DNA from: Betaproteobacteria bacterium
GTDB lineage: Bacteria; Pseudomonadota; Gammaproteobacteria; Burkholderiales; Casimicrobiaceae
Reading direction: 5' to 3'
Length of the DNA stretch: 64,000 nucleotides
Assembly: GCA_027492485.1 (NCBI GenBank)
Contig: JAPUER010000016.1
Span: forward strand, 139,388-203,387
Under the pieces are notes generated by a model. It was not told the origin of the DNA. It saw only the letters and a program-made list of their open reading frames with translations, and ran no database searches. Positions 3,869 to 62,563 of this stretch are shown here, piece after piece (within the stretch, counting starts at the first letter, position 1; each line of letters begins with the position of its first letter). The translations under genes were made by a program, and so were the position numbers.

Positions 3869-3982
3869 AGCTTTTTGACGAAACCCATATTCAATATGGG
3901 CAAAGACGTTGATTTAGCCAAAGTCGACTTCATGAAAAAACAGCGCTCGCGCCCAATGAAATAAGGCATCCATAGAAAAGCT
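3869..3982. repeat. GTCGAC-centred palindromic repeat, copy 1
   Basis: 114 bp. The left end AGCTTTTTGACGAAACCC starts 60 bases before the end of the GTCGAC core (3923-3928), and the right end, read on the minus strand as AGCTTTTC, mirrors it. It lies 35 bases after the stop of the dockerin-like gene and just before hrpA. It is visibly more AT-rich than the genes on either side. Confidence 0.8.
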
Positions 3983-3997
3983 GTACTCGCGAGCCTA

Positions 3998-4003
3998 TAC
4001 AAT
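3998..4003 (+). promoter_or_regulatory. Candidate -10 box of hrpA, near-leaderless
   Basis: TACAAT lies 11 bases before the hrpA ATG (4015). With normal spacing transcription would start about 4010, leaving a 5-base leader; no Shine-Dalgarno site is visible. The -35 region would fall inside the right end of repeat copy 1. Inference from sequence only. Confidence 0.4.
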
Positions 4004-4014
4004 CCGGCGCTCGC

Positions 4015-7000
4015 ATGACCACCCCGATTTCTCCTCCGGCGCTCGACCGCCGCTCGCTGTTGCTCGCCGATTACTGGCGCCTCAGCCGCCGCGCGCGACA
4101 ACTCAAACCTGACCAACTCGCTGCCGACATCGCTCGCGCCGAGGACCGTTTTCGCGACCGTCTGGCGCGTTCGCCAGCGATTGTCTACGCCGACGGGCTG
4201 CCGGTCTCCGAGCGCGCCGACGAGATCGCCTCGCTGATCCGCAATCACCAGGTCGTGGTGCTGACCGGCGAGACCGGCTCCGGCAAGACGACACAGTTGC
4301 CCAAGATCGCGCTGGCCGCCGGGCGCGGCCGCCACGGCCTGATCGGTCACACCCAGCCGCGCCGCATCGCCGCGCGCAGCGTCGCCGAACGCATCGCCAG
4401 CGAACTCGGCGAGGAGGTCGGGCAGTCGGTCGGCTACAAGGTGCGCTTCACCGAGAAGGCGACGCAGGACGGCTTCATCAAGCTGATGACCGATGGCATC
4501 CTGCTCGCCGAGACGCAGGCCGACCGCTTCCTCAACGCCTACGACACCATCATCATCGACGAGGCGCACGAGCGCTCGCTGAACATCGATTTTCTGCTCG
4601 GCTACCTGCGCCAATTGCTGCCGAAGCGGCCCGACCTGAAAGTCATCATTACCTCGGCCACCATCGACGCCGAGCGCTTTGCGCTGCACTTTCAGGATCG
4701 CCACGGTAAACCGGCGCCGCTGATCGCCGTCTCCGGCCGCACCTATCCGGTCGAGGTGCGCTACCGCTCCACCGAGAGCGAGGACGACGACGAGGAAAAG
4801 CTCGAAGAGGCGATCGCCGACGCGGTCGACGAACTGTGGCTCAACGGGCCGGGCGACGTGCTGGTGTTTTTGCCGGGCGAGCGCGAAATCCGCGAGACGC
4901 AGGACATCCTGCGCCGCCGGTTGAAACCGGGCACCGACATCCTGCCGCTGTTTTCGCGGCTATCGGCCGCCGATCAGCAGCGCATCTTCTCGCGCTCCGG
5001 CGGCCGCCGCGTGATCCTCTCGACCAACGTCGCCGAGACCTCGCTGACCGTGCCCGGCATCCGCTACGTGGTCGACACCGGCCTCGCGCGGCTCAACCGC
5101 TACAGCGTCAAGAACAAGGTGCAACTGCTGCAGATCGAGAAGATCTCGCAGGCCAGCGCCAACCAGCGCGCCGGCCGCTGCGGCCGCGTCGGGCCGGGCA
5201 TCTGCGTGCGGCTCTACAGTGAAGACGATTTCAACGCGCGCGACGCCTTCACCGACCCGGAAATCCTGCGTTCCTCGCTGGCCGGTGTGATCCTGCGTCT
5301 GGCCTCGCTCGGTTTCGGGCGCGTGCAGGAATTTCCGTTCATCGAGCCGCCGTCGAGCCGCGCCGTCGCCGACGGCGTCGCGCAATTGCAGGAGCTGGGC
5401 GCGCTGGCGACCACCGGCGCCGACGCCGATGGCACCACGCTCACCGCCATCGGCCGCGAACTGGCGCGCATCCCGGTCGATCCGCGCATCGGCCGCATGC
5501 TGATCGAAGGCCGGCAGCTTGGCGTGCTGCCGGAGGTGCTGGTGGTCGCGGCGGCACTCTCGGTGCCGGACCCGCGCGAACGCCCGTTCGAGGCGCGCGA
5601 TGCCGCGGACCGCGCGCATCAATGGTTCAAGGATGCCAAAAGCGATTTTCTTTCGCTGCTCAACATCTGGAAATTCTTCGTCGATCTGCGCGAGGAGGGC
5701 GGTCACAAAAAGCAGGTGCAGGCCTGTCGCGAGAAATTCCTGAACTGGCTGCGCCTGCGCGAATGGCGTGACTTGCATGGGCAACTTGTGCAGACCTTGA
5801 GTGAGTTGGGGTGGGCAGCTTACCCCTCCCCCCTCGTGGGGGAGGGGCGGGGGAGAGGGGGTGGCAGCAGGGACTCAACAGAGGCTACTGGCGTGCCACG
5901 TTCCCCCTCTCCCCAACCCTCCCCCACGAAGGGGGAGGGAGTAGAGCGCCTGACGCGTCTGTCCCGCGAAGCCCCCTACGAAGCCTTCCACCGCGCGCTG
6001 CTGCCGGGCCTGCTCGGCAATATCGGCGTCAAGAGCGACGAGGGGGATTTCTACCTCGGCGCACGTGGCATCAAGTTCCATCCGTTCCCCGGCAGCGGCG
6101 TCGACAAAAAGGGCCTCAAATGGCTGGTCGCGGCCGAACTGGCCGAGACCACGCGGCTCTACGCGCGCACGCTGGCGAAGATCGACCCCGACTGGATTGA
6201 GGCGGCGGCGGGCGAGGTGGTGACCCGCAACTATTTCGAACCGAAATGGGAGCGCGCCAGCGGCCAGGTGGTCGCCAGCGAACGCGTCTCGCTCTACGGT
6301 CTTGCCATCGTGCCGCGCCGGCGCGTCAACTACAGCCGCATCGCGCCGGTCGAGGCGCACGAGATCTTCGCCGTCGCGCTGGCGATGGGCGAGGTCGAGA
6401 CCAGCGCCGCTTTCTATGCGCACAACCTCAAACTCGTGAAGGATGTGCAGGCGCTGGAGGACAAGGCGCGACGCAGCGATGTGCTGGTGTCGGAGGAGAC
6501 CATCGCCGCGTTCTACAAATCGCGCATTGCTGCGGAGATTTCTACCCGCGCCGATCTCGAAAAGTGGCTGAAGGCGGAAGACCAGCCGGGCCTGACGCCG
6601 ACCGAACGCGCCGAGTTGCGCGGCAGCCGCGACCAATCGCTGCGCCTGTCGCGCGAGCAGCTCATGCGGCACGGCGCCGAGGCGATCACCGAGGCGCAGT
6701 TTCCGAAGACGCTCAAGCTCGGCGATTTCGAGGTACCGGTCAGTTATCGCTTCGAGCCGGGGCATGTGCTGGATGGCGTCACGGCACGGTTGCCGCTGCC
6801 CTTGCTGAACGCCGTGGAAGACCGCTTCGCGAGCTGGCTGATCCCCGGCCTCTGGCGCGAAAAGATTGCGGTTTACCTGAAAGCCCTGCCCAAGGCCGAA
6901 CGCGGTCGCGTGCAGCCGGTGCCGGACACGGTCACGGCCTTCCTCGAACTCGCCACGCCGCGCGAGAAACCATTGCCGGAAGCGCTGCTCGACTTCCTGC

Positions 7001-8088
7001 GCGACTACCTCAATCTCAAGCTGCCGGCCAGCGTGTGGGATCGCATCGAGCTGCCGGCGCATCTGCAACTCAACGTTCGCGTGATGGACGGCGAAGGCAA
7101 CGAGCTCGCGATGGGCCGCGATCTCGGCCAGTTGCAGCAGGACCTTGGTCAGGCCGCGCGCATGGCGTTTCAGGGCTCGGCGGCGACCGACGCCACCGGC
7201 GCAACCGCCGAGATCGAAAAGACCGGCCTCACCGGCTGGAACATCGGCACCTTGCCGGAAGGCATTCCGGTCAAGCGCGCCGGCCGTAACGTCACGGCTT
7301 ACCCGGCCTGCGTCGACGAAGGCGCTACGGTCGCCGTGCGCCTGTTCGAGACGGCGCTGGAGGCTGAGCGCGCCCATCGCAAAGGCGTGGTGCGGCTGAT
7401 TTCCCTTGAACTAAAGCAGCAATTGCGCAATTGGGAAAAAGGCCCGAGCGGCTTCAACCAGAGCGCGTTGCAACTGAAAACGGCGATCGCCACCGACAAG
7501 CTGCTGGCCGACTTCCTCGCCACGCTCGCCGACCGCGCCATCATCGGCGACGACGCCTTGCCGCGCGACGAGAAGGCCTACCGCGAGCAGATCGCGCGTG
7601 CCAAACAGCGCATTCCGGTGGTCGCCGAGGCGCTCGGCCGCACGCTGGCACAGGTCGCCGACGCTTATGCCGCGTTGCAGGGCGTGCTGTTCAGTCCGGC
7701 GGTGCGCAACAAGGCGCTGCTGCCGCTGCTGGCCGCCTGGCGCGACCGGCTGGTCTATGCGGGCTTTCTCGCCGCGACACCGTGGGCGCAGTTGCCGCAT
7801 GTGCCGCGTTATCTGCGCGCGCTCGGCAAGCGGCTGGAGAAGCAGCAGAGCATGCCCGAGCGCGAGACGCGGCATGCCCCGATACTGGCCGCGTACTGGA
7901 CGGACTGGCAGGCAGAGCTGGCGCGGGTCGGGGCGGCGGCAAGCGATGCACTGCTGGATTTCCGCTGGCAGATCGAGGAGCTGAACGTGTCGCTCTTTGC
8001 GCAGGAATTGAAGACGCCTTATCCGGTCTCGGCCAAGCGTCTGGACAAGGCGTGGACGGAAATCGTGGCTTCCGCGCCACGCGCCTAG
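4015..8088 (+). CDS. hrpA: ATP-dependent RNA helicase HrpA (DEAH box)
   Basis: 1357 residues, close to the roughly 1300 of E. coli HrpA. Motif I is G-E-T-G-S-G-K-T (residues 85-92) and motif II is D-E-A-H (182-185). Motif III S-A-T follows, and motif VI reads Q-R-A-G-R-C-G-R. Helicase, ratchet/OB and long DUF3418-type C-terminal regions follow in the normal order. The enzyme unwinds RNA in the cytoplasm; in E. coli it resolves stalled or collided ribosomes. Unusual: about 41 residues (roughly 603-643, rich in S-P, G-E-G and R-G-R-G) are encoded by an inserted palindromic repeat at 5822-5942, without breaking the frame. No upstream gene appears to share its transcript. Confidence 0.95.
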   Translation: MTTPISPPALDRRSLLLADYWRLSRRARQLKPDQLAADIARAEDRFRDRLARSPAIVYADGLPVSERADEIASLIRNHQVVVLTGETGSGKTTQLPKIALAAGRGRHGLIGHTQPRRIAARSVAERIASELGEEVGQSVGYKVRFTEKATQDGFIKLMTDGILLAETQADRFLNAYDTIIIDEAHERSLNIDFLLGYLRQLLPKRPDLKVIITSATIDAERFALHFQDRHGKPAPLIAVSGRTYPVEVRYRSTESEDDDEEKLEEAIADAVDELWLNGPGDVLVFLPGEREIRETQDILRRRLKPGTDILPLFSRLSAADQQRIFSRSGGRRVILSTNVAETSLTVPGIRYVVDTGLARLNRYSVKNKVQLLQIEKISQASANQRAGRCGRVGPGICVRLYSEDDFNARDAFTDPEILRSSLAGVILRLASLGFGRVQEFPFIEPPSSRAVADGVAQLQELGALATTGADADGTTLTAIGRELARIPVDPRIGRMLIEGRQLGVLPEVLVVAAALSVPDPRERPFEARDAADRAHQWFKDAKSDFLSLLNIWKFFVDLREEGGHKKQVQACREKFLNWLRLREWRDLHGQLVQTLSELGWAAYPSPLVGEGRGRGGGSRDSTEATGVPRSPSPQPSPTKGEGVERLTRLSREAPYEAFHRALLPGLLGNIGVKSDEGDFYLGARGIKFHPFPGSGVDKKGLKWLVAAELAETTRLYARTLAKIDPDWIEAAAGEVVTRNYFEPKWERASGQVVASERVSLYGLAIVPRRRVNYSRIAPVEAHEIFAVALAMGEVETSAAFYAHNLKLVKDVQALEDKARRSDVLVSEETIAAFYKSRIAAEISTRADLEKWLKAEDQPGLTPTERAELRGSRDQSLRLSREQLMRHGAEAITEAQFPKTLKLGDFEVPVSYRFEPGHVLDGVTARLPLPLLNAVEDRFASWLIPGLWREKIAVYLKALPKAERGRVQPVPDTVTAFLELATPREKPLPEALLDFLRDYLNLKLPASVWDRIELPAHLQLNVRVMDGEGNELAMGRDLGQLQQDLGQAARMAFQGSAATDATGATAEIEKTGLTGWNIGTLPEGIPVKRAGRNVTAYPACVDEGATVAVRLFETALEAERAHRKGVVRLISLELKQQLRNWEKGPSGFNQSALQLKTAIATDKLLADFLATLADRAIIGDDALPRDEKAYREQIARAKQRIPVVAEALGRTLAQVADAYAALQGVLFSPAVRNKALLPLLAAWRDRLVYAGFLAATPWAQLPHVPRYLRALGKRLEKQQSMPERETRHAPILAAYWTDWQAELARVGAAASDALLDFRWQIEELNVSLFAQELKTPYPVSAKRLDKAWTEIVASAPRA
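5822..5942. repeat. Palindromic repeat inserted in frame within hrpA
   Basis: Two roughly 40-bp C/G-rich arms (about 5823-5861 and 5899-5940) form an imperfect inverted repeat built on CTCGTGGGGGAGGGG and CCCTCCCCCACGAAGGGG, with about 37 bases between. This is the common intergenic repeat type that reads S-P-L-V-G-E-G-R-G-R in one frame. Here it is translated as part of the helicase. Confidence 0.85.
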
Positions 8089-8281
8089 GAAAGAACTGCG
8101 CACGAAGCGCAGCAACTCGATAACAGTGTGCTAGATTGTCAGAGTGACAAATCGCGTCACATGCAACGCGTTGCAGCAGCGCTCACACACGACGTTGTTT
8201 ACCTTGTCCCGTGGTCCCCGTGCGCTGCTGCAAGCATTGCCGACTGCGCGACCGATTCAACAGATCCAACCGATAGAGTCC

Positions 8282-10483: not shown

Positions 10484-10502
10484 GCGTCCGTTTGTTGTCG
10501 TG

Positions 10503-12163: not shown

Positions 12164-12181
12164 GTCGCTATTATCTCTGCC

Positions 12182-13213: not shown

Positions 13214-13241
13214 GCCCGGACGGCCGGCGCTGTGCGGTAAT

Positions 13242-13357
13242 GGCTTTTCGCTGAAAGCCTCATTCCAATCGGGCTAAAAGCAGTTTTTTGCAAGAAGTCG
13301 ACTTCTTGCGAAATAACGCGCTTCGCCCTTATCGGAAAAGGCTTCTAGCGTGAAGCT
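13242..13357. repeat. GTCGAC-centred palindromic repeat, copy 3
   Basis: 116 bp. GGCTTTTCGCTGAAAGCC at the left end and, on the minus strand, AGCTTCACGC at the right end lie each 61 bases from the far edge of the GTCGAC core (13297-13302). The centre is a perfect 20-bp palindrome, GCAAGAAGTCGACTTCTTGC. It fills the gap between the convergent stop codons of mltB and queF. Confidence 0.85.
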
Positions 13358-17519: not shown

Positions 17520-20835
<3,316 letters not shown>

Positions 20836-20846: not shown

Positions 20847-21758
20847 ATGACCCCGATCCGCAAAGCCGTCTTCCCCGTCGCTGGTCTCGGCACCCGTTTT
20901 CTCCCGGCGACCAAGGCGATGCCGAAGGAGATGCTGACCGTCGTCGACAAACCGCTGATCCAGTACGCGGTGGAAGAGGCCGCGGCCGCCGGCGTCACCG
21001 ACATGATCTTCGTCACCGGTCGCAACAAGCGCGCCATCGAGGACCACTTCGACCGCGCCTACGAGCTGGAGAACGAACTCGAACGCGCCGGCAAGCAGGC
21101 GCTGCTCGACGAGTTGCAGGCGTCGATTCCGTCCAACATCAACTGCGTGTTCATCCGCCAGGGCGACGCGCTTGGGCTTGGTCATGCTGTGCTCTGCGCG
21201 CAGCCGGTGGTGGGCGACGAGCCGTTCGCGGTGATCCTGGCCGACGAACTGATTCGCCCGACCGGCAGCGGCTCCGGTGTGCGCGGCGCCACGGCGCAAC
21301 TCGCCGATGTGTACGCGCGCCTGTGTGGTGCCGGCAACGGCGGCGGTGGCGTGATCGGCGTCAACTACATGCCTGGCGATTCGATCACCCGCTACGGCGC
21401 GATCAAGATTGCCGACATGGTGCAGCACGCCGACGGCGACGCGATGCGACTGGCCGGTTTCGTGGAAAAGCCGAAGCCTGCCGAGGCACCGTCGCAGTTC
21501 GGCGCCATCGGCCGCTACGTGCTGCCGGCGTCGATCTTCGAGCACCTCAAGCAGATCAAGAGCGGCAGCGGCGGCGAAATCCAGTTGACCGACGCCATCG
21601 CCAGGCTCGCCGCCGTCGAGCCGGTCTACGCGGTGGAAACCGTCGGCCGTCGCTACGACTGCGGCACCAAGCTCGGCTACCTCGAAGCGACCGTCAAGCT
21701 CGGCCTCGAACGGCCGGAATTCAGCGCCGAGTTCGCGGTTTTTCTCAAGCAGCTTTAG
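20847..21758 (+). CDS. galU: UTP--glucose-1-phosphate uridylyltransferase
   Basis: 303 residues. It makes UDP-glucose for surface polysaccharide, osmoprotectant and lipid glycosylation. The nucleotidyltransferase motif G-L-G-T-R-F-L-P-A-T-K-A-M-P-K-E-M is at residues 13-29, followed by V-D-K-P-L-I-Q-Y and the A-D-E/D-L-I block (A-D-E-L-I-R) around residue 133. It follows ligA by 11 bases and is probably in the same transcript. Its last codons (K-Q-L-stop) lie inside repeat copy 5, which begins at 21751. Confidence 0.95.
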   Translation: MTPIRKAVFPVAGLGTRFLPATKAMPKEMLTVVDKPLIQYAVEEAAAAGVTDMIFVTGRNKRAIEDHFDRAYELENELERAGKQALLDELQASIPSNINCVFIRQGDALGLGHAVLCAQPVVGDEPFAVILADELIRPTGSGSGVRGATAQLADVYARLCGAGNGGGGVIGVNYMPGDSITRYGAIKIADMVQHADGDAMRLAGFVEKPKPAEAPSQFGAIGRYVLPASIFEHLKQIKSGSGGEIQLTDAIARLAAVEPVYAVETVGRRYDCGTKLGYLEATVKLGLERPEFSAEFAVFLKQL

Positions 21759-21866
21759 CTACAAACGCGCAGTATTACATGGCTTGCCGGATGATTTTTC
21801 GATAAGTCGACTATCAAGTTTTTTGCGGTGAAAGCGCCGTACGTTGCCGCTCTCACGTAAAAAGCC
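21751..21866. repeat. GTCGAC-centred palindromic repeat, copy 5
   Basis: 116 bp with the GTCGAC core at 21806-21811. Its left end AGCTTTAG supplies the last sense codon and stop of galU. Its right end (GGCTTTTTACGTGA on the minus strand) stops one base before the stop codon of the convergent ABC permease gene (21868). The whole gap between the two genes is therefore repeat. Confidence 0.8.
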
Positions 21867-21867
21867 A

Positions 21868-23079
21868 TTACTTCCCCGTCAGCATTTTCTCGTCGCCCAG
21901 CCGCCGGCTGAACGCGAACAGCGCTACGGCGCAGATCAGCGCCGGAATGACGATCATCGCTAGCCATTCGGTGCCGGCAATCGTCTCTGCGCGCAACACC
22001 TTGCTCAGCACCGCGTACTGCCCGTTGACCGGCACCCATACGTCCCACCACGGCGCTTTGGTTTGCCGCAGCATGCTCATGATCGGCAGCAGGCCGATCA
22101 TCGAGACGCCGAATTGCAGCGAGCTTTGCGCTTCTTTCGCCGTCTTGCCGGCGGCGCCGAAGGCGAGCAGCACGGCGGGCACCATGAAGGCAAACGGTAC
22201 CAGCACGGCCATGAAGCCTGCGTACTCGCGCAGACCGAAGCTGAATGGCAGCCCCAGCCGGTCGATCGGCACCACCTGCAGCGCCAGCACGAAGCCAAGC
22301 AACGACACGGTCACCGCGATCAGGTTGACGCCGGTCACGGCGAGCCATTTGCCGATGGTCAGCTCCGGCACCGTGACCGGCGTGGCCAGCAGCGGCTCCA
22401 GCGTCTGCCGTTCGCGTTCGCCGGCCGTCACGTCGAGCGCGGCGGCGATCGCGCCCATCAACCCGGCAAACAGCGCGTAGAAGCTCATGAACTGCAACAT
22501 CCGCGAACCCTTCTGCTCGGGGGTGGCGAGATCCAGATCGTCGAACTGCACCGGATGCGCGACCGCCGGCGCCACGCCGCGCAGAAGCAGTCGTTCGTTG
22601 CCGACGTAGTCGGCCCAGCCGCGCACGGCGCGCGACAGGCGGCTCGCGACCGGTACTGAGCGGTCGCGGCTGGATTCGGTGACCAGCGTGATGCGCGCGA
22701 CGCGGCCGCTGGCGTAGGCGGCGGCGAAGTCGGGGTCGACCACCAGCACGGCATCGAGATCGCCGGACTTGACCCGCGCTTCGTAGTCGGGCGGATCGGG
22801 CTCCACCTTGATGCCGCCGCGTTCGAGAAAGCGCACCAGATCGGGCGCGAATTGCGCATTCACGATCGGCGCCGTGATCTTCTCCATCCGCTCGGTCACC
22901 GATTGCGCGACGAAGTAAATCAGCCCCACCACCAGCGGGCCGGAAATAGCCACCGCGAACAGGCCCCAGAAGATGCTCTTGCGGTCGCGCAGCAGATCGC
23001 TGAACTCCTTGCGCGCGACCAGCGCGAGCCGTGCCAGGCTGAAGGTGGACGTCGTCATGTTGCCTGCACCGCCGCTCAT
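21868..23079 (-). CDS. ABC-2 type exporter permease (NatB-like)
   Basis: 403 residues. An N-terminal R-K-E-F-S-D-L-L-R-D-R-K-S segment precedes the first membrane helix (residues about 35-58), a periplasmic domain of about 150 residues, then five more hydrophobic segments in the C-terminal half. A cytoplasmic loop E-R-E-R-Q-T-L-E-P-L-L-A-T-P-V is the hallmark of NatB-type permeases. It overlaps the ATPase gene by four bases (stop/start overlap), so the two are translationally coupled. NatAB exports sodium in Bacillus, but homologues elsewhere have other or unknown substrates. The companion peptidase and acylase genes hint at a drug or peptide. Confidence 0.88.
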   Translation of the reverse strand: MSGGAGNMTTSTFSLARLALVARKEFSDLLRDRKSIFWGLFAVAISGPLVVGLIYFVAQSVTERMEKITAPIVNAQFAPDLVRFLERGGIKVEPDPPDYEARVKSGDLDAVLVVDPDFAAAYASGRVARITLVTESSRDRSVPVASRLSRAVRGWADYVGNERLLLRGVAPAVAHPVQFDDLDLATPEQKGSRMLQFMSFYALFAGLMGAIAAALDVTAGERERQTLEPLLATPVTVPELTIGKWLAVTGVNLIAVTVSLLGFVLALQVVPIDRLGLPFSFGLREYAGFMAVLVPFAFMVPAVLLAFGAAGKTAKEAQSSLQFGVSMIGLLPIMSMLRQTKAPWWDVWVPVNGQYAVLSKVLRAETIAGTEWLAMIVIPALICAVALFAFSRRLGDEKMLTGK

Positions 23080-33827: not shown

Positions 33828-33837
33828 GTAACGACCT

Positions 33838-33953
33838 GTGAACAAGGGCTGGCGCCAAGGCAATAGGCCGGAAACGACGGTTTTTAGTTAATGTCGACTT
33901 TCGATATTTTCTTGCTAGCAGCCCATATCCAACTGCGTTTCAAGCAAAAAGCC
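33838..33953. repeat. GTCGAC-centred palindromic repeat, copy 4
   Basis: 116 bp read best on the minus strand: GGCTTTTTGCTTGAAACGC begins at 33953, 61 bases from the far edge of the GTCGAC core (33893-33898). The opposite end is degenerate but keeps a GGCAATAGGCC-like block. This is the only copy located between divergent gene starts. Confidence 0.7.
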
Positions 33954-40578: not shown

Positions 40579-40693
40579 AGCTTTTTGCTGAAACCCGCAT
40601 TTGAATTGGGCAAAGCGCGAATATTTATTCAAAGTCGACTTATAGAAAATACAAGCGTACGCCCATACACAATGGGCATATCACGTCAAAGCT
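40579..40693. repeat. GTCGAC-centred palindromic repeat, copy 2
   Basis: 115 bp. The left end AGCTTTTTGCTGAAACCC aligns with copy 1 almost without gaps, and GTCGAC sits at 40634-40639. The right end (AGCTTTGACG on the minus strand) contains the stop codon of the minus-strand gene ending at 40686. Confidence 0.85.
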
Positions 40694-50365: not shown

Positions 50366-52123
50366 TTAAACCGTCACGCCGGCTTTGCCGGCAGCATGCC
50401 GTGCTGCCAGGTAACCGAAGGTCATTGCCGGCCCGAGCGTGATGCCGCCGCTCGGGTAGTTGCCGCCCATGATCGAGTTCATGTCGTTGCCGCAGGCATA
50501 GAGTCCGCCAATGGCCTGACCGGCGCCATCGAGAACCTGTGCGTGCTCGTTGGTTACCAGGCCGGCAAAGGTGCCAAGACTGCCCGGCACCACTTTGACC
50601 GCATAGAACGGCGCCGTTTCGATCGCGGCCATACAGGGGTTGGCGCCATTGTGCGCGGCATCGCCCTGAACGCGGTTATAGGGTGTTTTGCCCTTGCCAA
50701 AGTCATCGTCGACCCCGGTTTTTGCCTGTGCGTTGTAGCGTGCAACGGTTGCCATCAATGCGGAAGCCTCGATGCCGCACTCGGGCGCGAGCGCAGCCAG
50801 CGTTCGGCCACGCTTGAGGTAACCCGATCGCAGGTAAGGGCCGAGCGGCAGCGGTGCCGGCTTTGCCGCGCCAAGCCCCCAATGCCGAATGAAACGGTGA
50901 TCGCAAATCAGCCATGCTTCGACCGGCAGCTTGCCGCCACAGTCTTTGAGCAAATCGCTCATGAAATCGTGGTATGAGTTTGCCTCGTTGGTGAACCGTG
51001 CGCCACGACGGTTCACGGCAATCAGGCCGGGTTTGGCGCGTTCGAGCAGGTGGGGGTAGTGCCCGACGCTGCCATCCCGCCGCGGCACCAACGAGACGGG
51101 TGCAAGTGCCGCGGCCGACGCTTGGCGTGACGACACGTGACCGCCGGTAGCTTCACCGACGCGAAGCCCGTCGCCGGTACACGACGTGGCGGCGGCCGAC
51201 CAGTGCTCGGTGCCGGACGGCGCATGCGGCAGCAATTGCCGCTTGCGTGCGCTGTCATGCGGAAATCCGCCACAGGCGAGGACAACGCCACGGCTTGCCC
51301 GGATTTCTATCTCGCCGCGCGCCGTGCGGACGATTGCACCAGCAACGGCGCCGCCCGCGTGTTGATCGGCGCCGACGAGGCCGACAAGTGCGCTGTTCAG
51401 CCGAATTTCCACGCCGCGGTCGAACGCGGATTGCGCCAGTGCCGCAACCAGCGCATTGCCGTTGACCAGGTGCATGCCGCGGCCATGCAGCATGCGGTCG
51501 CGGCCATGACGCAACACGCGCCCGGCGACATACGCGAACGAACGCCAGGTTCGCATCGCGTTGAAGAAATGGCGGATGTCCGCGCCCGAGGCGATGCCCA
51601 TGCCCCACGGCGCAGTTTCCCCGAGCGGTGGCTTCAGCCCGGCGATGTGTTTGCCTAGCCGCCGACCGTCGAACGGTGCGGCGCACAAGCTGCGTCCGCC
51701 GGTGGCGGCGTCGGGCGTGTTGCCGTGAAAATCGGGGATCAGATTGCCGTCGATGAACTGCAACGCCGTTTGTTCCCGAAAGAATCTCACCATGTCGGGG
51801 CCGTGGGCAAGAAAGGCGCGTAGCAACGATTCGTCGAAATGACCGCCAAGTTCGTGGCGCAGATAGTTGAGCGGTGCATCCGCGCCTTCGACGATGCCGG
51901 CTTCGACGGCCAGCGGGTTGCGCGGAATCCACATCCAGCCGCCCGACCAGGCCGTGGTGCCACCGAACTGCCCATCCTTCTCGATGACAATTACTTTGAG
52001 GCCCGCATGTGCAGCGACCACGGCGGTCGACAGCCCGCCGGCACCGGAGCCCGCGACCAGCAGATCGCAATGCTCGACCGGTCGCATCGGCGCCTGCGGC
52101 GCGATCGCGGTGTCAGGCTGCAT
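50366..52123 (-). CDS. KstD-like FAD-dependent dehydrogenase (copy 1)
   Basis: 585 residues from the ATG at 52123, which overlaps the end of iclR by 11 bases. N-terminal FAD fold L-L-V-A-G-S-G-A-G-G-L-S (21-32) then G-G-T-T-A-W-S-G-G-W-M-W-I-P. At the C-terminus N-Y-P-S-G-G-I-T-L-G-P-A-M-T-F-G-Y holds a Tyr (Y556) placed like the enolising Tyr of 3-ketosteroid 1-dehydrogenase. It probably desaturates a carbon-carbon bond next to a ketone. Low-complexity is absent and length is close to its paralogue at 54019. No steroid degradation genes are seen nearby, so a steroid substrate is unlikely. Confidence 0.87.
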   Translation of the reverse strand: MQPDTAIAPQAPMRPVEHCDLLVAGSGAGGLSTAVVAAHAGLKVIVIEKDGQFGGTTAWSGGWMWIPRNPLAVEAGIVEGADAPLNYLRHELGGHFDESLLRAFLAHGPDMVRFFREQTALQFIDGNLIPDFHGNTPDAATGGRSLCAAPFDGRRLGKHIAGLKPPLGETAPWGMGIASGADIRHFFNAMRTWRSFAYVAGRVLRHGRDRMLHGRGMHLVNGNALVAALAQSAFDRGVEIRLNSALVGLVGADQHAGGAVAGAIVRTARGEIEIRASRGVVLACGGFPHDSARKRQLLPHAPSGTEHWSAAATSCTGDGLRVGEATGGHVSSRQASAAALAPVSLVPRRDGSVGHYPHLLERAKPGLIAVNRRGARFTNEANSYHDFMSDLLKDCGGKLPVEAWLICDHRFIRHWGLGAAKPAPLPLGPYLRSGYLKRGRTLAALAPECGIEASALMATVARYNAQAKTGVDDDFGKGKTPYNRVQGDAAHNGANPCMAAIETAPFYAVKVVPGSLGTFAGLVTNEHAQVLDGAGQAIGGLYACGNDMNSIMGGNYPSGGITLGPAMTFGYLAARHAAGKAGVTV

Positions 52124-53149: not shown

Positions 53150-53222
53150 TTAAGAAAAAAAGCAAGTAAAATCAATTCACTATTCGTATGTCAACCGGCA
53201 AGCCGGCCGTGGTGGAAGAAAA

Positions 53223-54017: not shown

Positions 54018-54018
54018 G

Positions 54019-55797
54019 ATGGACGCCTCCCTGCAATCGCTCGCCGAGCACGATAGCTTTGACGTGGTGGTGATCGGTGCCGGTGGCGCTGGAATGTCGG
54101 CGGCGCTGTTCGCGGCGATTGACGGCGCCAGGGTGCTGCTGGTTGAGCGTACCGAATACCTGGGTGGCACCACTGCGCTGTCGGCGGCGACCAGTTGGGT
54201 GCCACTCAGCAAGCCGGGGCTTGCCGTCGACCCGAGCGACAATTACGACAAGGTGCTGGGCTTCCTTGATCGCGCGGTTGGCGCGCGCGCGCCGCGTGCC
54301 CTGCGCGAGGCCTTTCTGGCCAACGGTCACAAGGCCGTTGCCAAGCTGGAGGAAAACAGCCACGTGCAGTACCAGGTGCGGCCGTTGCACCCGGACTACA
54401 TGACCGAATTGCCGGGCTCCGTGCTGCGTGGCCGCGCGATCGAGCCGAAACCGTTCGACGGCCGCCGGCTCGGCAGGATGCTCCGGCTGATCCGGCCGCC
54501 CATCCCGGAATTCACGGTGCTCGGCGGCATGATGGTCGACCGCGACGACATCGGGCACCTGCTGAACGTGAGCAAATCGTTGCGCTCGTTCCGCTATGCA
54601 GCGCGCATCATCCTGCGTCATCAGATGGATCGTTTGCTGCACGGTCGCAGCACCCGCCTGGTGATGGGCAACGCACTCATCGGCCGTTTGCTGTTGTCGT
54701 TGCACGAGCGCCGGGTCACGATCGTCACCCGCTGCAACGTGACCGCGCTGCAAACGCGGGCGACGGCATCGGCGGGCGTGCAGGTGACCGGCGTCGTGCT
54801 CGAGCAGGATGGCGTGCGGCGCGAGGTGACGGTGGGCGGTGGCGTGATTCTCGCCAGCGGCGGCTTCAATCGCCACCCTGATCGGCGCGCCGGGTGGCTG
54901 CCCGGCATCAGTGCATTGTGGAGTCCAGCGGCACCGGGCCATACCGGCAGCGCCCAGGATCTCGCCGTTGCCATCGGCGCCGGCTATGGCGCGGACACGG
55001 TCGCCGCGGATGCGACGGATAGCGGCCGCGTGCTGAGTCATGCCTTCTGGGCGCCGGTGTCGATTCGCACTCGTGCCGACGGCAGCGTTGCGGCCTTCCC
55101 CCACTTTGTGATGGACCGGGGCAAGCCGGGCATGATCACCGTGAATCAGCGCGGCGAGCGTTTTGTCAACGAATCGACCTCCTATCACCTGTTCGGTCTC
55201 GCCATGCAGGCGGCGAATCGGGAGACGCCGAGCATTCCGGCGTGGCTGCTTTGTGATGCGACGGCACTCGCGCGCTACGGTCTCGGCATGATCCGACCGG
55301 GGGCGAAAGATGGAGGCAGCATCGCGCCCTACCTCGCCGACGGCTATCTGACGCGCGGTCAAACCATCGCTGAACTGGCCACAAAGATAGGTGCCGATCC
55401 GGCCGTGCTGGCGGCCACGATCGAACGCTTCAACGCAGCAGCAGACCAGGGTGTCGATGCCGATTTCCAGCGCGGCAGCACCGATTATCAGCGTGCGAAT
55501 GGGGACGGCACGCGAGACGGCAAAAATCCGTGCCTCGGCGCACTACGCAGTGGCCCGTTCTACGCGATCCGTCTCTACCCGGGGGATATCGGCGCTTCAA
55601 CGGGGTTGCGCACGGATGCGAGCGCAAGGGTTCTCGATCGATCGGGCAAGCCAATCGCGGGCCTGTACGCCTGCGGCAACGACATGCACTCGATCATGGG
55701 GGGCACCTACCCGGCGCCCGGCATCACGATCGGTCCGGGCCTCACCTTCGCGTATCTGGCGGCGGAAGACGCGGTGGCGCGCAGCGGCGTCACCTGA
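54019..55797 (+). CDS. KstD-like FAD-dependent dehydrogenase (copy 2)
   Basis: 592 residues. FAD fold V-V-V-I-G-A-G-G-A-G-M-S (16-27), G-G-T-T-A-L-S-A-A-T-S-W-V-P, and C-terminal G-G-T-Y-P-A-P-G-I-T-I-G-P with Tyr564 in the position of the KstD enolising Tyr. It is paralogous to the gene at 50366 on the opposite strand. It begins one base after the AroE-like stop, so the two are co-translated. Together with the upstream dehydrogenase this fits oxidation of an alcohol to a ketone followed by ring desaturation. A second desaturase could complete a route to an aromatic ring. Confidence 0.87.
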   Translation: MDASLQSLAEHDSFDVVVIGAGGAGMSAALFAAIDGARVLLVERTEYLGGTTALSAATSWVPLSKPGLAVDPSDNYDKVLGFLDRAVGARAPRALREAFLANGHKAVAKLEENSHVQYQVRPLHPDYMTELPGSVLRGRAIEPKPFDGRRLGRMLRLIRPPIPEFTVLGGMMVDRDDIGHLLNVSKSLRSFRYAARIILRHQMDRLLHGRSTRLVMGNALIGRLLLSLHERRVTIVTRCNVTALQTRATASAGVQVTGVVLEQDGVRREVTVGGGVILASGGFNRHPDRRAGWLPGISALWSPAAPGHTGSAQDLAVAIGAGYGADTVAADATDSGRVLSHAFWAPVSIRTRADGSVAAFPHFVMDRGKPGMITVNQRGERFVNESTSYHLFGLAMQAANRETPSIPAWLLCDATALARYGLGMIRPGAKDGGSIAPYLADGYLTRGQTIAELATKIGADPAVLAATIERFNAAADQGVDADFQRGSTDYQRANGDGTRDGKNPCLGALRSGPFYAIRLYPGDIGASTGLRTDASARVLDRSGKPIAGLYACGNDMHSIMGGTYPAPGITIGPGLTFAYLAAEDAVARSGVT

Positions 55798-55853: not shown

Positions 55854-55857
55854 CAAC

Positions 55858-57135
<1,278 letters not shown>

Positions 57136-57462: not shown

Positions 57463-58335
57463 ATGTTGCGAAGTTCTGGGTCGAGGACGTTGGGATTGCT
57501 GGCAGCGCTTGCGTTCTCTGCATGGAGTCATGCCGATACGCTATCGGAGGTTCGCGAGCGCGGCGAGTTTCGCCTCGGTCATCGCGAGAGTTCATCGCCG
57601 TTCTCGTATGTCAACGAGAAGGGAGACGCGGTTGGCTATTCGGTCGATATTTGTCTGAAGGTTTTCGATCAGGTCAAGGCGGAGTTGAAGCGCCCGGACC
57701 TGAAAGTCAAGTTCGTGGCGTTGAAGCCGGCCGACCGCATTGCCGCAGTCAAAGACGGGCGGGTCGATGTCGAGTGCGGGTCCACCACCAATACGGTTGC
57801 GCGGCAGAAAGACGTCGCCTTCAGCTACACCACCTTCATGGCCGGCGCGCGCCTGCTGGCAAAGAAGACGTCTAACCTGAAAGACCTTGCCGACCTGCGC
57901 GGCAAGACAGTCGTGGTGACCGAAAAAACCACGACCGAATCGTTGATCAAGCAGATGAGCTCGGAACGCAACCTGAATTTCAAGATACTGATCGCCAAGG
58001 ATCATGCCGAAGGATTTGCGCGGATGGACTCCGGCGAGGCAATGGCGGTGGCCAACGATGACGCGCTGCTGTTCGGGCTGGTCGGCAAGGCGAAAGATCC
58101 GACCGCCTACGATTTCGTCGGCAAGTACATCTCGGTCGAGCCTTACGGCATCATGTACCGCAAGGGCGATCCGGCGTTCGAAAAGCTGATCGACAGCGCG
58201 ATTGCCAACCTGTTCAACACGGGGCAACTGAAGTCGATTTACGCCAAGTGGTTCGAGAGCGGCACCTTCAAACTGCCGATGAACCAGTACATGAAAGAAA
58301 ACCTCAAGTTGCCCAACAAGTACGGCGTGCAGTAG
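57463..58335 (+). CDS. Amino acid ABC transporter substrate-binding protein (glutamate/aspartate type)
   Basis: 290 residues with GGGAG before the start and a signal peptide (1-24, ending S-H-A). The mature protein is of the family 3 type: R-G-E-F-R-L-G-H-R-E-S-S-S-P-F-S-Y, then G-Y-S-V-D-I-C near residue 63 and K-D-G-R-V-D-V-E-C-G-S-T-T-N-T. The C-terminal F-K-L-P-M-N is like GltI. The R-E-S-S and S-T-T-N-T segments resemble dicarboxylic amino acid binders. Permease and ATPase are not adjacent: purL follows. Confidence 0.87.
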   Translation: MLRSSGSRTLGLLAALAFSAWSHADTLSEVRERGEFRLGHRESSSPFSYVNEKGDAVGYSVDICLKVFDQVKAELKRPDLKVKFVALKPADRIAAVKDGRVDVECGSTTNTVARQKDVAFSYTTFMAGARLLAKKTSNLKDLADLRGKTVVVTEKTTTESLIKQMSSERNLNFKILIAKDHAEGFARMDSGEAMAVANDDALLFGLVGKAKDPTAYDFVGKYISVEPYGIMYRKGDPAFEKLIDSAIANLFNTGQLKSIYAKWFESGTFKLPMNQYMKENLKLPNKYGVQ

Positions 58336-58492
58336 AGCTTGCAGGCACCGCCGGACGCCGTGCGCGGCGCCCGTGCGGAACGCAGCCCGGCCGCGCGGCG
58401 GCGGATTGCGCAACCGCTAAAATCCAGTTTTCCGCATCGGCTTCTGGCGCGCTGGTTTCGGCCCGACGCGCCCGACGCATACCGCCTCGCGC

Positions 58493-61400
58493 ATGACCGC
58501 TACTTTCCTGTCTCTTCGCGGTTCCGCCGCGCTTTCGCAATTCCGTCAAGACAAACTGGTCGCCACGTTGGCCGGCCATCGGGTGACGGCGATCAATGCC
58601 GAGTTCTGGCACTTTGCCGCCGTCAGCCGGGAGCTTACCCGCGAAGAACGCACCCGACTCGATGCCTTGCTGGCATATGGCGCCGATGCCGAGCCGAGTG
58701 ACGGGCATCAGTACGCCTTCCTCGTCGTGCCCCGGCTCGGCACCATCTCGCCGTGGTCGTCGAAGGCGACCGACATCGCGCACAACTGCGGGCTCGATGC
58801 CGTGCGGCGCATCGAGCGTGGCGTCTGGTTCTGGGTGTCGGCTGAAAAAGCCTTGACCACGCAGGCGAAGCGGGCGATCGAGGATGCCTGCCACGACCGC
58901 ATGACGGAGACGGTGTTGCCCGATCTGAAGGCGGCGGAGGCGCTGTTCGAGGCGCACACGGCCAAATCGCTGACCACGATTGCGCGCAGCAAAGCATCGT
59001 TGCAGGCCGCCAACGGCAAGCTCGGCCTCGCGTTGTCAGACGACGAAATCGACTATCTCGTCGCCGCGTTCGACCGCCTGGGCCGCGATCCGACCGACGT
59101 CGAACTGCTGATGTTCGCGCAGGCCAACTCCGAACATTGCCGGCACAAGGTGTTCAACGCGAGCTGGAGCATCGACGGCGAGGCGCAGGACCGTTCGCTG
59201 TTCGCGATGATCCGCAACACGTACAAGCTATCGCCGCAGGGTACCGAGGTCGCGTACTCAGACAACGCGGCCATCATGACCGGTGGCGACGCACAGCGGT
59301 TCTATCCCGATGCCGACGGGCGCTACGCGCTGCATGCCGATCGCACGCACTATCTCGCCAAGGTCGAAACGCACAATCATCCCACCGCCATCGCGCCGTA
59401 TGCGGGCGCCGCCACCGGTGCCGGCGGCGAGATCCGCGACGAGGGCGCGACCGGGCGCGGCGCGGTACCGAAGTCCGGCCTCACCGGTTTCACTACCTCG
59501 AACCTGCGCCTGCCGGGCCTGCCGCAGCCGTGGGAGGCGGCCACTGCCGACGTCGGCAAGCCGGGGCGCATCGTGTCGGCGCTCGACATCATGATCCAGG
59601 GGCCAATCGGCGGCGCCGCGTTCAACGACGAATTCGGCCGCCCCAACCTTGGCGGCTACTTCCGCACCTTCGAGCAGAGGCTCGGCGATACGGTGTATGG
59701 CTATCACAAGCCGATCATGATCGCCGGCGGCGTCGGCGCGGTGTCCGATGCGCACGTGCACAAGATCGCGTTTGCGGCCGGCACGCTGCTGATCCAGCTT
59801 GGCGGCGAGGGCATGCGCATCGGCATGGGCGGCGGTGCCGCCTCGTCGATGACCACCGGCCAGAACACCGCCGATCTCGATTTCGATTCGGTACAGCGCG
59901 GCAACCCCGAGATGGAGCGCCGTGCGCAGGAAGTCATCAACGCCTGCTGGCGCTTGCGCGAGGCCAATCCGATACTGGCGATCCACGACGTTGGCGCCGG
60001 TGGCCTGTCCAACGCGCTGCCGGAACTGGTGCACGATGCGGGCCGCGAGGGCGATCCCCGCGGCGCGCTGTTCGATCTGCGCAAGGTGCTCACGCTCGAG
60101 CCCGGCATGAGCCCTGCCGAGATCTGGTGCAATGAGTCGCAGGAGCGCTACGTGCTCGCGATCGCGCCGCAGAGCCTCGCCACGTTCAAGGCCTTTTGCG
60201 AGCGCGAACGCTGTCCGTTTGCGGTGCTCGGCGTGGCCGACGGCTCCGGCAACCTCACTGTTGCCGACGCGAAGTTCAGCAACCAGCCGGTCGACATGCC
60301 GCTCGAGGTGCTGCTCGGCAAGCCACCCAAGATGGAGCGCAATGCCACGCGCAAGCTCGCGCCCGCCGTGCCGCTGGCAGCGGGTGCGGCAAATCTGCGC
60401 GACTCCGCCTACCGCGTGTTGCAGCATCCGGCAGTGGCCGACAAGACTTTCCTGGTGACCATCGGCGACCGCTTCGTGGGCGGACTCACGGCGCGCGAGC
60501 AGATGGTCGGTCCCTGGCAGGTGCCGGTGGCCGATTGCGCGGTCACGTTGCGCGACTTCGTCGGCAGCGCCGGCGAGGCGATGGCGATGGGCGAGCGCAC
60601 GCCGCTCGCGGTGCTCAACGCGCCCGCCTCGGCGCGCATGGCTGTCGCCGAGGCGATCACCAACATCGCCGCCGCGCGCATCGACGCGATCGGCGACATC
60701 AAGCTGTCCGCCAACTGGATGGCGGCCGTCGGCGTGCCTGGCGAGGACGCCGCGCTGTACGACGCCGTGCGCGCCGTTGGCATGGAGCTCTGTCCGGCGC
60801 TGGGCATCGCGATTCCGGTCGGCAAGGACTCGATGAGCATGCGCACGGCGTGGGGCGAGGGCGACGCGAAGAAATCGGTGCACTCACCGGTTTCGCTGAT
60901 CGTCACCGCGTTCGCCAATGTCGCTGCGGCCGGCAAGACGCTCACGCCGCTGCTGCGCACCGAGGGCGACAATGTTCTTTTGCTGGTCGACGTGGCGCGC
61001 GGCAGGCAGCGTCTTGGCGGCTCGATCCATGCGCAGGTGCATTCGTTGATGGGCGCCGAGGTGCCCGATTGCGATTCGGCCGACGATCTCAAGCGCTTCT
61101 TCGCGGGCGTGCAGATGCTCAACGCGCAGGGGCTCGCGCTGGCCTATCACGACAAGTCCGACGGTGGGCTGTTTGCCACGCTGGTGGAGATGATGATCGC
61201 CTCGCGTTGTGGATTGACGGTGACGCTGGATGCCTGCCTGTCCGTTCGCCCTGAGCGTAGCGAAGGGTCTGATGGCGGATCAAACCCTTCGGCTTTCGCC
61301 TCAGGGCGAACGGATGGGGGCGAAGTGGTGGCCGCGCTGTTCAACGAGGAACTGGGCGCCGTGATCCAGGTGCGTCGCGCCGACCTCGATCGTGCGCGGG

Positions 61401-62446
61401 CCGCGTTTGCCGGCCTGCCGGTGCACGAAGTTGCCACGCTGCGCGACGACGGCAAATTGGTCGTCTCGCTTGCCGGCAAGACCGTCCTCGACGAGGCGCG
61501 CCAGGCGCTGCATGCCGCCTGGAGCGCCACCAGCATCGAAATCCAGCGCCTGCGCGACAACCCCGATTGCGCCGACGCCGAGTTCGACCGTGTGTTCGAC
61601 GATGCCGATGCCGGGCTCGCGCCGCGGGTGCTGTTCGACGCTAGCGTCAACGCCGCCGCGCCGATGATCGCGACCGGCGCCCGCCCCAAAGTCGCGATCC
61701 TGCGCGAGCAGGGCGTCAATTCGCACATCGAGACCGGCCACGTGTTCACGCTCGCCGGCTTCGACGCCTATGACGTGCACATGACCGATCTGCAGACCGG
61801 CCGCCGCTCGCTCGACGAATTCAAGGGCTTCGTCGCCTGCGGTGGCTTCAGCTACGGCGACGTGCTCGGCGCCGGCGCCGGCTGGGCCAAGTCGATCCTG
61901 CTCAATCCAGCGCTGCGCGAGCAGTTTCAGGAATTCTTCAACGAGGACGACAGCTTCGCGCTCGGCATCTGCAACGGCTGCCAGATGCTGGCGCAGATGG
62001 CGCCGATCATCCCCGGCGCCGCGCATTGGCCGAAGTTCGTGCGCAATGGCAGCGAGCAGTTCGAGTGCCGCACGGCGCTGGTCGAGGTGATGGACACGCC
62101 GTCGATCTTGTTCAAGGGCATGACCCAGACGCGCTTGCCGATCGTCGTCGCGCACGGCGAAGGCTTCGCCCAATTCAAGGACGAAGAACAGCTCGAAGCC
62201 GCGCAGCCGCTGGTGACGTTGCGTTTCGTCGACGGCCACGGTGCGGCGACCGAGACCTATCCGCTCAATCCGAACGGCTCACCAGGCGGTATCACCGGAC
62301 TCACCACCGCAGACGGCCGCTTCAATGTGCTGATGCCGCATCCCGAACGCACGCATCGCGTCGAAAACTTCTCGTGGCATCCCGAAGGCTGGACGCGCTC
62401 GCCATGGCTGCGCATGTTCGAGAACGCTCGGGTATGGCTGGGCTAA
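58493..62446 (+). CDS. purL: Phosphoribosylformylglycinamidine synthase PurL
   Basis: 1317 residues, the large single-chain type. It converts FGAR and glutamine to FGAM in purine synthesis. The N-terminal domain is followed by two synthetase repeats (including E-T-H-N-H-P-T-A-I near residue 291 and H-D-V-G-A-G-G-L). The C-terminal glutaminase has Cys1160 in [10 protein letters not shown] and His in M-P-H-P-E-R. Compared with E. coli (1295) it is about 22 residues longer, mostly the segment (about 917-942) encoded by the palindromic repeat at 61241-61314. Stop TAA at 62444-62446. Confidence 0.96.
61241..61314. repeat. Palindromic repeat inserted in frame within purL
   Basis: Inverted arms TCCGTTCGCCCTGAG (61241-61255) and CTCAGGGCGAACGGA (61300-61314) with further matching inward (GCGAAGGGT and ACCCTTCG). 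This is the frequent proteobacterial intergenic repeat reading S-V-R-P-E-R-S-E-G. Here it codes for part of the synthase without a stop. Confidence 0.9.
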
Positions 62447-62447
62447 T

Positions 62448-62563
62448 AGCTTTTTGGCGGAAACGATTGCCCAGTGGACGTTGTACCGAGAAAAACAGAA
62501 TAGTCGACTAGATGAAAAAAAGCCTCGGAACTACCGTGTAGCGGTCGTTACACCTGAAAAGCC
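62448..62563. repeat. GTCGAC-centred palindromic repeat, copy 6
   Basis: 116 bp with core TAGTCGACTA (62501-62510). The left end AGCTTTTTGGCGGAAAC starts one base after the purL stop region, and the right end (GGCTTTTCAG on the minus strand) stops three bases before the stop of the MFS gene. Both ends are exactly 61 bases from the far core edge. Confidence 0.85.

Follow-up and report, generated by a model that had tools for sequence, protein, structure and literature searches.

Dispersed sites that organise bacterial chromosomes, such as matS, parS and KOPS, are roughly 8–16 bp long and have a regional or polar distribution. Longer intergenic palindromes are best described from E. coli, where BIME-2/REP (PU) sequences are reported as hundreds of intergenic palindromes that favour gene ends and convergent gaps, and have been proposed as domain barriers and gyrase sites (PMC3733652, PMC6379681, PMC6907758). 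The REPs are palindromes of 20–40 bp (PMC3733652) which RAYTs replicate within REPINs (PMC8049555). REPINs are inverted doublets described as persisting vertically over long times (PMC8049555), and one account gives them ends of 16 bp that do not vary, frequent compensatory changes and a random distribution (PMC3116915). ERIC, YPAL and NEMIS are families with lengths of 127, 130–169 and 106–158 bp, and most families of this type are, in the same description, predicted to fold into shared stem-loops (PMC2267715). The E. coli gyrase motif is given as a sequence of about 130 bp, symmetric about the 4-bp cut and with phased A/T (PMC6379681). According to a review on the nucleoid of E. coli, it is an open question what supercoil-diffusion barriers are, and their placement is described as random (PMC6907758).

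Six copies in the window

Six palindromes had been noted in a preliminary description of the window, the whole stretch of 64,000 nucleotides that was analysed. All are present, with details corrected, and all are among the 51 matches of a profile search, with E-values from 1.7e-8 to 1e-20. They are listed here without a strand.

3869..3982, copy 1, intact, type A halves, profile E-value 8.5e-18
13242..13357, copy 2, intact, profile E-value 1e-20
21751..21866, copy 3, occupying the gap of two convergent genes, profile E-value 1.5e-10
33838..33953, copy 4, core and right half intact, left half degenerate (possible insertion), E-value 5e-12 (33835–33953)
40579..40693, copy 5, intact, type A halves, profile E-value 1.6e-18
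62448..62563, copy 6, right half type B, profile E-value 1.7e-8

The distance from the end of each half to the far edge of the central GTCGAC, originally given as 59–61 bases in every half counted, holds for 11 of the 12 halves (60–61 bases) and fails for the left half of copy 4, where the RGCTTTT end is absent and the sequence is degenerate or carries an insertion. Shared RGCTTTT ends were found broadly as described, the exact form not being universal among the six: copy 3 starts with AGCTTTA, and the right halves of copies 2 and 5 start with AGCTTCA and AGCTTTG, respectively. The GGGC block reported for four copies is present in copies 1, 2, 4 and 5.

Copy 1 is flanked by ORF 1896–3833 (+) and a helicase/DUF3418 ORF (4015–8088, +); its counterpart in genome G005 adjoins the orthologous helicase gene and is anchored on the right flank only. 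Copy 2, the sole near-perfect hairpin among the six (RNA fold z −7.0), has a G005 counterpart flanked by the same genes. Copy 3 overlaps the final 8 bases of a nucleotidyl transferase ORF (20847–21758, +; Pfam) and stops 1 base short of an ORF for an ABC2 membrane protein (21868–23079, −; Pfam). Orthologous elements exist in G005 for copies 3, 4 and 5, that of copy 4 being likewise irregular with a span of 141–147 bp, and no element was found in the gap matching copy 5 in G015. Copy 6 sits between the stop codons of purL (58493–62446, +) and an MFS gene (62567–63748, −), and the matching gap holds an element in G005, G012, G013 and G015. One strict match, at about position 18252 of the window, lies within long ORFs and has no corresponding profile match.

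Copy number and range

The strict dyad pattern matched 134 times in the genome of the window, compared with 2 matches for the reversed pattern used as a control. A profile search of 463,387 bp of this genome, with a profile trained on matches from the very stretches on which it was scored, yielded 51 copies, while the reversed sequence gave none at E≤1. The genome thus holds many more copies than those in the window, and the early judgement that constant geometry with loose sequence is not due to chance is borne out by both controls. As 23 of the 134 strict matches fall within the fetched 463 kb, which came from contigs chosen as rich in elements, the genome would contain about 300 copies. A 1.02-Mb sample of G005 holds 75 copies, which scale to about 330 by length and to about 410 by strict half-matches (17 of 93 inside the sample), and strict matches occur all the way round the closed chromosome of G005. 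From these counts we estimate 300–400 copies per genome.

Of 17 genomes from a single Burkholderiales genus of uncultured bacteria, 16 contain the element, the per-genome profile counts being lower bounds. It occurs in none of 43 genomes from six sister genera, and the strict patterns matched none of 368 other genomes of the class and no stretch of viral contigs. Within the genus it is absent from G016 and there are few copies among the matches listed for G009, which indicates that it is dispensable in reduced genomes. The general profile found 2–3 copies in G007, and one built up from 13 loci of the G007 clade gave 48 copies in 400 kb (E≤0.01).

Architecture of the element

Conservation reaches about 3 bases beyond each end (consensus WWC before AGCTTTT), so that the element spans about 122 bp. 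Its modules are placed symmetrically about a central TCGA: A/T tracts lie at ±13 from this centre, a nested dyad lies at ±33.5, and the CAGCTTTT ends come at about ±56. Information content is 81.5–88.7 bits in four genomes and 65.5 bits in G007, values which are inflated by small samples. A divergent subclade has a different consensus at identical offsets (33.5 and 56 bp), and among the matches listed for G012 five pairs of nested B dyads lie exactly 67 bp apart. Half-sites are mostly of type A in G000, G005 and G015, whereas all 38 halves that could be used in G012 are of type B.

Symmetry is a property of the consensus, and individual copies are often poor hairpins. Covariation between the arms is nearly absent: arm–arm pairing in G000 is.469 versus.461 expected from column composition (z 1.1), with z-values of 1.5, −1.9 and −1.0 in G005, G012 and G015. 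Nested pairing in these four genomes is also near expectation, save for one register in G000 (z 3.2); the corresponding values for G007 are 0.8 (arm–arm) and 2.8 (nested). An earlier G000 alignment had given an arm–arm z of 2.6, limited to positions 12–36, and the G000 excess lies where both halves tend toward the same subtype. When the six window copies were folded as RNA, two gave folds as weak as those of shuffled sequence (z −0.5 and −0.6). An Rfam scan of the window at gathering threshold gave no match. The suggestion of a structured DNA or RNA element survives for DNA, in the sense of a putative protein–DNA site, and is not supported for RNA. An RNA hairpin or cruciform was rejected on the folding and pairing tests, as the arms pair about as composition predicts.

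Kinship and inheritance of the copies

On average, the copies of one genome are about as alike as sequences drawn independently from a single motif. Their mean pairwise identity in G000 is.503 versus.506 for such draws, with similar results for the other four genomes; in none of the five does it exceed the value for independent draws. This distribution disfavours a copying family, average kinship being nil. The closest pair exceeded the maximum of 20 simulations in G005 (.658/.640), G015 (.632/.623) and G007 (.649/.553), not in G000 and G012, so some kinship may remain.

An element was kept in 25 of 30 syntenic comparisons. These 25 orthologous pairs match at.324 of variable positions (random pairs,.296) and at.746 of consensus positions (random pairs,.723); elements are therefore inherited in place, with variable bases nearly as diverged as in unrelated copies. 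One of the five comparisons without an element is a 36-bp gap with its left edge unaligned, and no target duplication was seen in an unsystematic look at the 30. Y1_Tnp genes are present in 15 of the 17 genus genomes and absent from G016 and G009. A second palindromic repeat family, REP-like in look, may be the partner of a RAYT.

Spacing and gene context

In the stretches sampled from two species, elements are distributed more regularly than expected by chance. The coefficient of variation (CV) in G000 is.49 versus.90±.11 (0 of 2000). A first spacing test gave a CV of.52 (0 of 2000), a result that did not hold unchanged: the larger G005 sample is non-significant owing to an element-free 105-kb stretch (722 of 5000 with this gap kept); with the gap cut out, a post hoc step, the CV is.484 versus.935±.102 (0 of 5000). 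Exclusion at short distance, found in two genomes, is independent of this cut in G005, where 1 of 73 spacings is below 3 kb and 13.5 were expected. Spacing is non-significant in G007 (165 of 2000; 8 spacings below 3 kb versus 12.9 expected) and weak in G012 and G015 (84 and 54 of 2000). G015 has 2 spacings below 3 kb versus 3.2 expected, and two copies in G012 are just 0.8 kb apart. Even spacing could stem from selection against close pairs and not from a function at distance. The 105-kb stretch, the one element-free gap of this length in the G005 sample, carries TraC, TraG/TraD-like and Tn3-transposase genes (10 of 64 ORFs scanned).

With genes called by a simple script, convergent gaps are enriched for elements (odds ratio 2.03, p 4e-4) while divergent gaps are not (p 0.26).

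Candidate binding proteins

No consistent genus-specific ParB was found across 17 genomes of the genus and 13 outside it. ParB_N has 1–3 matches per genome in both groups (a single one in 11 of the 17), and these similar counts led us to reject a dedicated ParB-like paralogue, such as a ParB/Noc-type site would have. An extra gyrase-wrapping protein was also rejected, since GyrA_C repeats among the matches listed (6 or 7 in 16 of the 17 genus genomes, 0 in G013) fit one gyrA per genome.

Discussion

Of several explanations for these elements, we favour selectively kept composite protein-binding sites that probably serve chromosome organisation. That each is a selected double-stranded DNA site bound by protein is very likely, while for a role on the scale of the chromosome the balance tips only slightly in favour. 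In this model, every element would be a composite, dyad-symmetric recognition site of about 122 bp, over whose full length one or more sequence-specific dimeric proteins would assemble. The 300–400 sites, at fixed intergenic places and largely mutually exclusive within about 3–5 kb, would punctuate the core chromosome and anchor its organisation, for example as fixed boundaries of supercoil domains or as docking sites for topoisomerase or condensin, a role like that proposed for BIMEs in E. coli. As hundreds of sites of about 80 bits are unlikely to arise by independent point mutation, an origin from a mobile sequence at the root of the genus is likely; a mobile palindrome may have spread once and then been domesticated.

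One alternative is an RNA-level element, such as a bidirectional transcription terminator or a stabiliser of mRNA 3′ ends. Some copies do fold well, and 41% of 167 stop-side edges lie −10 to 20 bp from a stop codon, compared with 12% of 143 start-side edges. However, there is little covariation between the arms, no U-run follows a G+C hairpin in the consensus, divergent genes flank 31 of 155 placed copies, Rfam gave no match in the window, and a terminator needs no full symmetry down to the TCGA core; we regard this reading as very improbable. The early idea of a miniature mobile element, in the form of a REPIN/BIME- or ERIC-like palindrome that a RAYT or another transposase still copies at a slow rate, agrees with the presence of hundreds of symmetric intergenic copies of about 120 bp, with the lack of Y1 transposase genes in exactly the two genus genomes having no or few elements, and with the closest pairs that beat the simulations in three genomes. 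As a process of the present day it is nevertheless most improbable. We found little or no compensatory pairing, reported as common in REPINs (PMC3116915), and on average no kinship between the copies of a genome; REP doublets are described as randomly distributed (PMC3116915), whereas these elements exclude one another. Positions are mostly orthologous, the acquired stretch with transfer genes is free of elements, and no viral contig matched a strict pattern.

Among protein-bound alternatives, operators of a very large regulon under a conventional regulator would fit dyad sites whose species-specific half-sites change together (type A versus type B), but enrichment is found in convergent gaps and not in the promoter-bearing divergent ones, the element far exceeds the usual size of an operator, and elements exclude each other along the chromosome. 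Also, the best 10 of 85 nested-dyad matches in G012 all lie inside full elements, none being a solo operator. We consider a regulon quite improbable. An unlikely possibility is that the element is wrapped over its full length by gyrase and cleaved at the central TCGA with a 4-base stagger, so that every domain would have one element as its fixed supercoil sink; no other version of the explanation that we prefer is as specific. The length of about 122 bp is near that of the symmetric, degenerate 130-bp E. coli gyrase motif (PMC6379681), convergent gene ends are preferred, and A/T peaks occur at several offsets (11–14, 23–24, 29–31, 35–37, 43, 51–53 and 59–60 in G000, differing between genomes). 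When phage Mu was scored with the A/T profile of the element, the annotated gyrase site fell close to a local maximum (z 1.35–1.83), yet the result is weak: the expected centre ranks 713 of 7851, and a position one base away ranks 267. The best spectral A/T period is 7.5–7.75 bp in three of five genomes and 9.75–10.25 bp in two, and G016 has a gyrA-type gene and no elements. Furthermore, recognition by E. coli gyrase is degenerate, whereas the modules here are base-specific (about 80 bits) and the sequence of the nested dyad changes from one species to another, pointing to a dedicated protein.

If organising sites are indeed what selection has maintained, supercoil-domain boundaries in this genus would be genetically encoded, not random, and long fixed sites every ~10 kb would allow the question of supercoil barriers to be tested directly from sequence alone: the identity of the bound protein, the effect of removing sites, and whether borders in contact maps coincide with sites. 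Tentatively, we picture a genus with near-evenly spaced, sequence-coded chromosome partitions, in which 300–400 maintained 122-bp dyads, one per ~9–14 kb, may each carry a nucleosome-scale protein–DNA assembly whose recognition sequence switches between species under a geometry fixed to the base pair. The change from type A to type B half-sites would then be a natural experiment in how a DNA-binding protein and its hundreds of targets evolve together. Copies that resemble motif draws, orthologous positions, near-saturated variable bases and exclusion of close pairs together set an array of functional sites apart from a family of repeats, which is usually difficult to do for intergenic palindromes.

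Comparison with known systems

As far as the cited descriptions go, BIME-2/REP sequences are alike in number, intergenic place and preference for gene ends and convergent gaps; the element differs as a 122-bp dyad with no evident stem constraint and little kinship that largely excludes its neighbours. With REPINs, as characterised in these sources, it shares vertical persistence as an inverted doublet, but their fixed 16-bp ends, frequent compensatory changes and random distribution were not found in it. ERIC, YPAL and NEMIS, as described, resemble it in length, intergenic place and inverted repeats, but the element shows no stem-loop constraint of the kind predicted for most such families. 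The E. coli gyrase motif and the strong Mu gyrase site are similar in length, symmetry and A/T tracts; the motif is, in its published description, degenerate, read indirectly and without fixed modules, and the Mu cross-test of the element was weakly positive. Like matS, parS and KOPS, the element is sequence-specific, distributed over the chromosome and apparently kept by selection, but it is about 122 bp long, occurs in hundreds of copies and has strict matches all around the closed chromosome of G005.

A genus-confined family of symmetric sites

The six palindromic places reported in the preliminary description were all read directly in the sequence, and five of the six are intact dyads. A half-length of 59–61 bases, claimed for every half counted, holds for 11 of the 12 halves (60–61 bases) and breaks down in copy 4 (33838–33953), where right half and core are good and the left half is degenerate. 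In the window's genome (G000; 4,123,058 bp in 83 contigs), RGCTT-N40-58-GTCGAC-N40-58-AAGCY matched 134 times vs 2 for a reversed control, and a profile built from such copies found 51 elements in 463,387 bp, with no match at E≤1 in the same sequence reversed, bearing out the expectation of a non-chance family with further copies. The contigs searched with the profile were selected from ones in which copies had been listed, and they over-represent the element: 11% of the genome carries 23 of the 134 strict matches. The estimate for G000 is therefore about 300 copies; for its congener G005 it is about 330 to 410.

Counted from the TCGA dyad centre, the modules are the core AAGTCGACTT, an A/T tract at offsets 11–14, a nested dyad centred at 33.5, CAGCTTTT at about 56 and more A/T at 59–60. 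The nested dyad occurs as type A, GCCCAT-N5-ATGGGC, or type B, TAACGACC-N7-GGTCGTTA. By a simple score, type B accounts for all 38 usable halves in G012, 16/94 in G000, 4/83 in G005, 5/25 in G015 and 1/46 in G007 (all congeners); in G012 its dyad matched 85 times vs 1 in the control, with five pairs exactly 67 bp apart among the matches listed. A different consensus characterises the G007 subclade, for which 400 kb gave 48 copies at E≤0.01 and the control none, but the offsets are unchanged (nested dyads 33.5, AGCT ends 56, TCGA centre 0). The geometry is fixed while the sequence changes.

The strict pattern is present in 11 of the 17 genomes of the genus and in none of 23 other relatives, 368 other genomes of the class or the viral contigs searched. 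A very strict version yielded, across 84,980 species genomes, 20 stretches in five metagenome-assembled genomes (Burkholderiales or Pseudomonadota bacterium), JAGNQL010000003.1 being among the contigs. The broad profile, scanned with Infernal's stricter filters and at most 59 candidates scored per genome, detected the element in 16 of the 17 genomes and in none of 43 from six sister genera; the exception is G016 (2.6 Mb, 97% complete). G009 and G016 (2.5 and 2.6 Mb) are the two smallest genomes of the genus, with few or no elements, and no Y1 transposase was seen in either. Element loss may have accompanied genome reduction there.

Other repeats in the window are:

61242–61313, second palindromic repeat, about 72 bp (CCGTTCGCCCTGAGC...GCTCAGGGCGAACGG), in frame inside purL
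5821–5943, very G+C-rich inverted repeat inside helicase/DUF3418 ORF 4015–8088
50403–50543 and 55623–55763, two 141-nt stretches in inverted orientation, separated by 5 kb and 76% complementary

The alignment of purL to relatives breaks at the 72-bp repeat, which makes up, among the matches listed (both strands), most of 33 query matches in G000 and many of 76 in the congener G004, there partly clustered about 200 bp apart. In the G+C-rich repeat complementarity is 73% over the 41-nt arms and rises to 90% over inner arms of 29 nt; the inverted pair possibly represents paralogous gene segments.

Placement, spacing and maintenance

Gene context was taken from rough gene calls for 178 copies in five genomes, of which 22 overlap called ORFs and one was dropped for a missing neighbour. 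The 155 placed copies lie in 43 convergent, 81 tandem and 31 divergent gaps, vs 270, 1048 and 267 in the background, an enrichment of convergent gaps (odds ratio 2.03, p = 4e-4). Element edges fall within −10 to 20 bp of stop codons in 41% of 167 cases vs 12% of 143 for starts.

Against a random choice of intergenic gaps, spacing is even in G000 (coefficient of variation, CV,.49 vs.90±.11, 0 of 2000; 1 spacing <3 kb vs 12.8) and in the first 620 kb of G005 (.49 vs.93±.12, 0 of 2000), two results that are not independent, since orthologous regions are common to both. It is suggestive in G012 and G015 (84 and 54 of 2000), and G007 showed no significant evenness (165 of 2000). Extended to 1.02 Mb, the G005 sample holds 75 elements (control 0) and one long gap:

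G005:C1:110305–215434, element-free, 105 kb, 64 ORFs called, 10 scanned

With this gap the CV is.854 and its significance is gone (722 of 5000), although short-distance exclusion stays significant: 1 of 73 spacings is <3 kb vs 13.5 (minimum 3 in 5000) and 4 are <5 kb vs 22.3 (minimum 8). A post hoc cut of the gap gives.484 vs.935±.102 (0 of 5000). Strict half-pattern matches occur around the closed chromosome, from 19.9 kb to 4.44 Mb. Products of the 10 of 64 ORFs scanned include TraC, a TraG/TraD-type protein, a topoisomerase, a Tn3 transposase, a DNA methylase and SNF2/ResIII helicases, with a subtilase and an aminotransferase near the edges; the gap is apparently an acquired conjugative island.

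Each of the six window copies is matched by an element in G005, whose flanking genes are about 81–88% identical; both flanks anchor the match for five copies, and only the right flank does so for copy 1. The element was in both genomes in 16 of 18 comparisons of a first synteny set and was kept in 25 of 30 in a larger set from five genomes, some comparisons having a site in common and a few gaps being 1–3 kb long. Agreement across the 25 orthologous pairs vs random pairs was.324 vs.296 at variable positions,.746 vs.723 at consensus positions and.359 vs.270 in nearby flanks, so that hardly any trace of shared ancestry survives in the variable bases, while the consensus persists. To judge from these sequences, the element is probably kept in place by selection. 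The gap below purL carries it in G000, G005, G012, G013 and G015; in G005 this gap measures 2.2 kb vs about 0.1–0.4 kb elsewhere, with the element retained near the purL edge, seemingly an insertion beside it.

Nature of the elements

A structured DNA or RNA element had been proposed. If arms paired, as RNA or cruciform, a change in one would be mirrored in the other, yet arm–arm pairing is close to that of arms shuffled among copies (G000.469/.461, G005.515/.495, G012.504/.525, G015.484/.497). An earlier G000 alignment gave z 2.6 overall; in both alignments the excess is restricted to positions 12–36, where left and right halves tend toward a common type (38 AA, 6 AB, 5 BB) and where G015 has a deficit (z −3.1). 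Nested-dyad pairing matches expectation except in G000 (z 3.2, 1 of 10 registers) and G007 (z 2.8), both excesses being small (.36 vs.33;.54 vs.50). The other suggestion, a miniature mobile element, fares no better as regards present-day copying: mean copy identity is at or below that of independent draws in all five genomes (G000.503 vs.506, drawn column by column). The closest G000 pair (.675) equals the highest maximum of 20 simulations, whose maxima average.636. A few related pairs may exist, since in G005 (.658 vs.640), G015 (.632 vs.623) and, clearly, G007 (.649 vs.553) the observed maximum lies above all simulated ones. Recent copying would have left many; there is little kinship.

One long, symmetric motif at fixed places, with mutual avoidance and no evident stems, points to binding sites rather than repeats. 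To pick out some 300 sites from 4 Mb, one regulator would need about 15 bits, and since each element carries about 80, a multi-contact protein assembly would span its whole length. A chromosome-organising role would fit the even spacing, the preference for convergent gaps and the absence from the acquired stretch. The element might be a gyrase site, its A/T peaks and length recalling the 130-bp E. coli gyrase motif described in PMC6379681, but the A/T period analysis was mixed and a test against the phage Mu gyrase site weak. The genus genomes showed no extra gyrase-type and no consistent ParB-type protein marking the genus. Given its restriction to one genus, the putative binding site most likely goes back to a mobile palindrome that spread in one burst and was then domesticated.

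Comparison with known systems

By the stem, copy-kinship and placement tests the element does not behave as a REP/BIME/REPIN or an ERIC-like palindrome would, in agreement with the initial impression that no named family matches, and searches of open-access full text turned up no title or abstract describing such an element. The element may share the function proposed for BIME-2, that of domain barrier and gyrase site, without belonging to that family.
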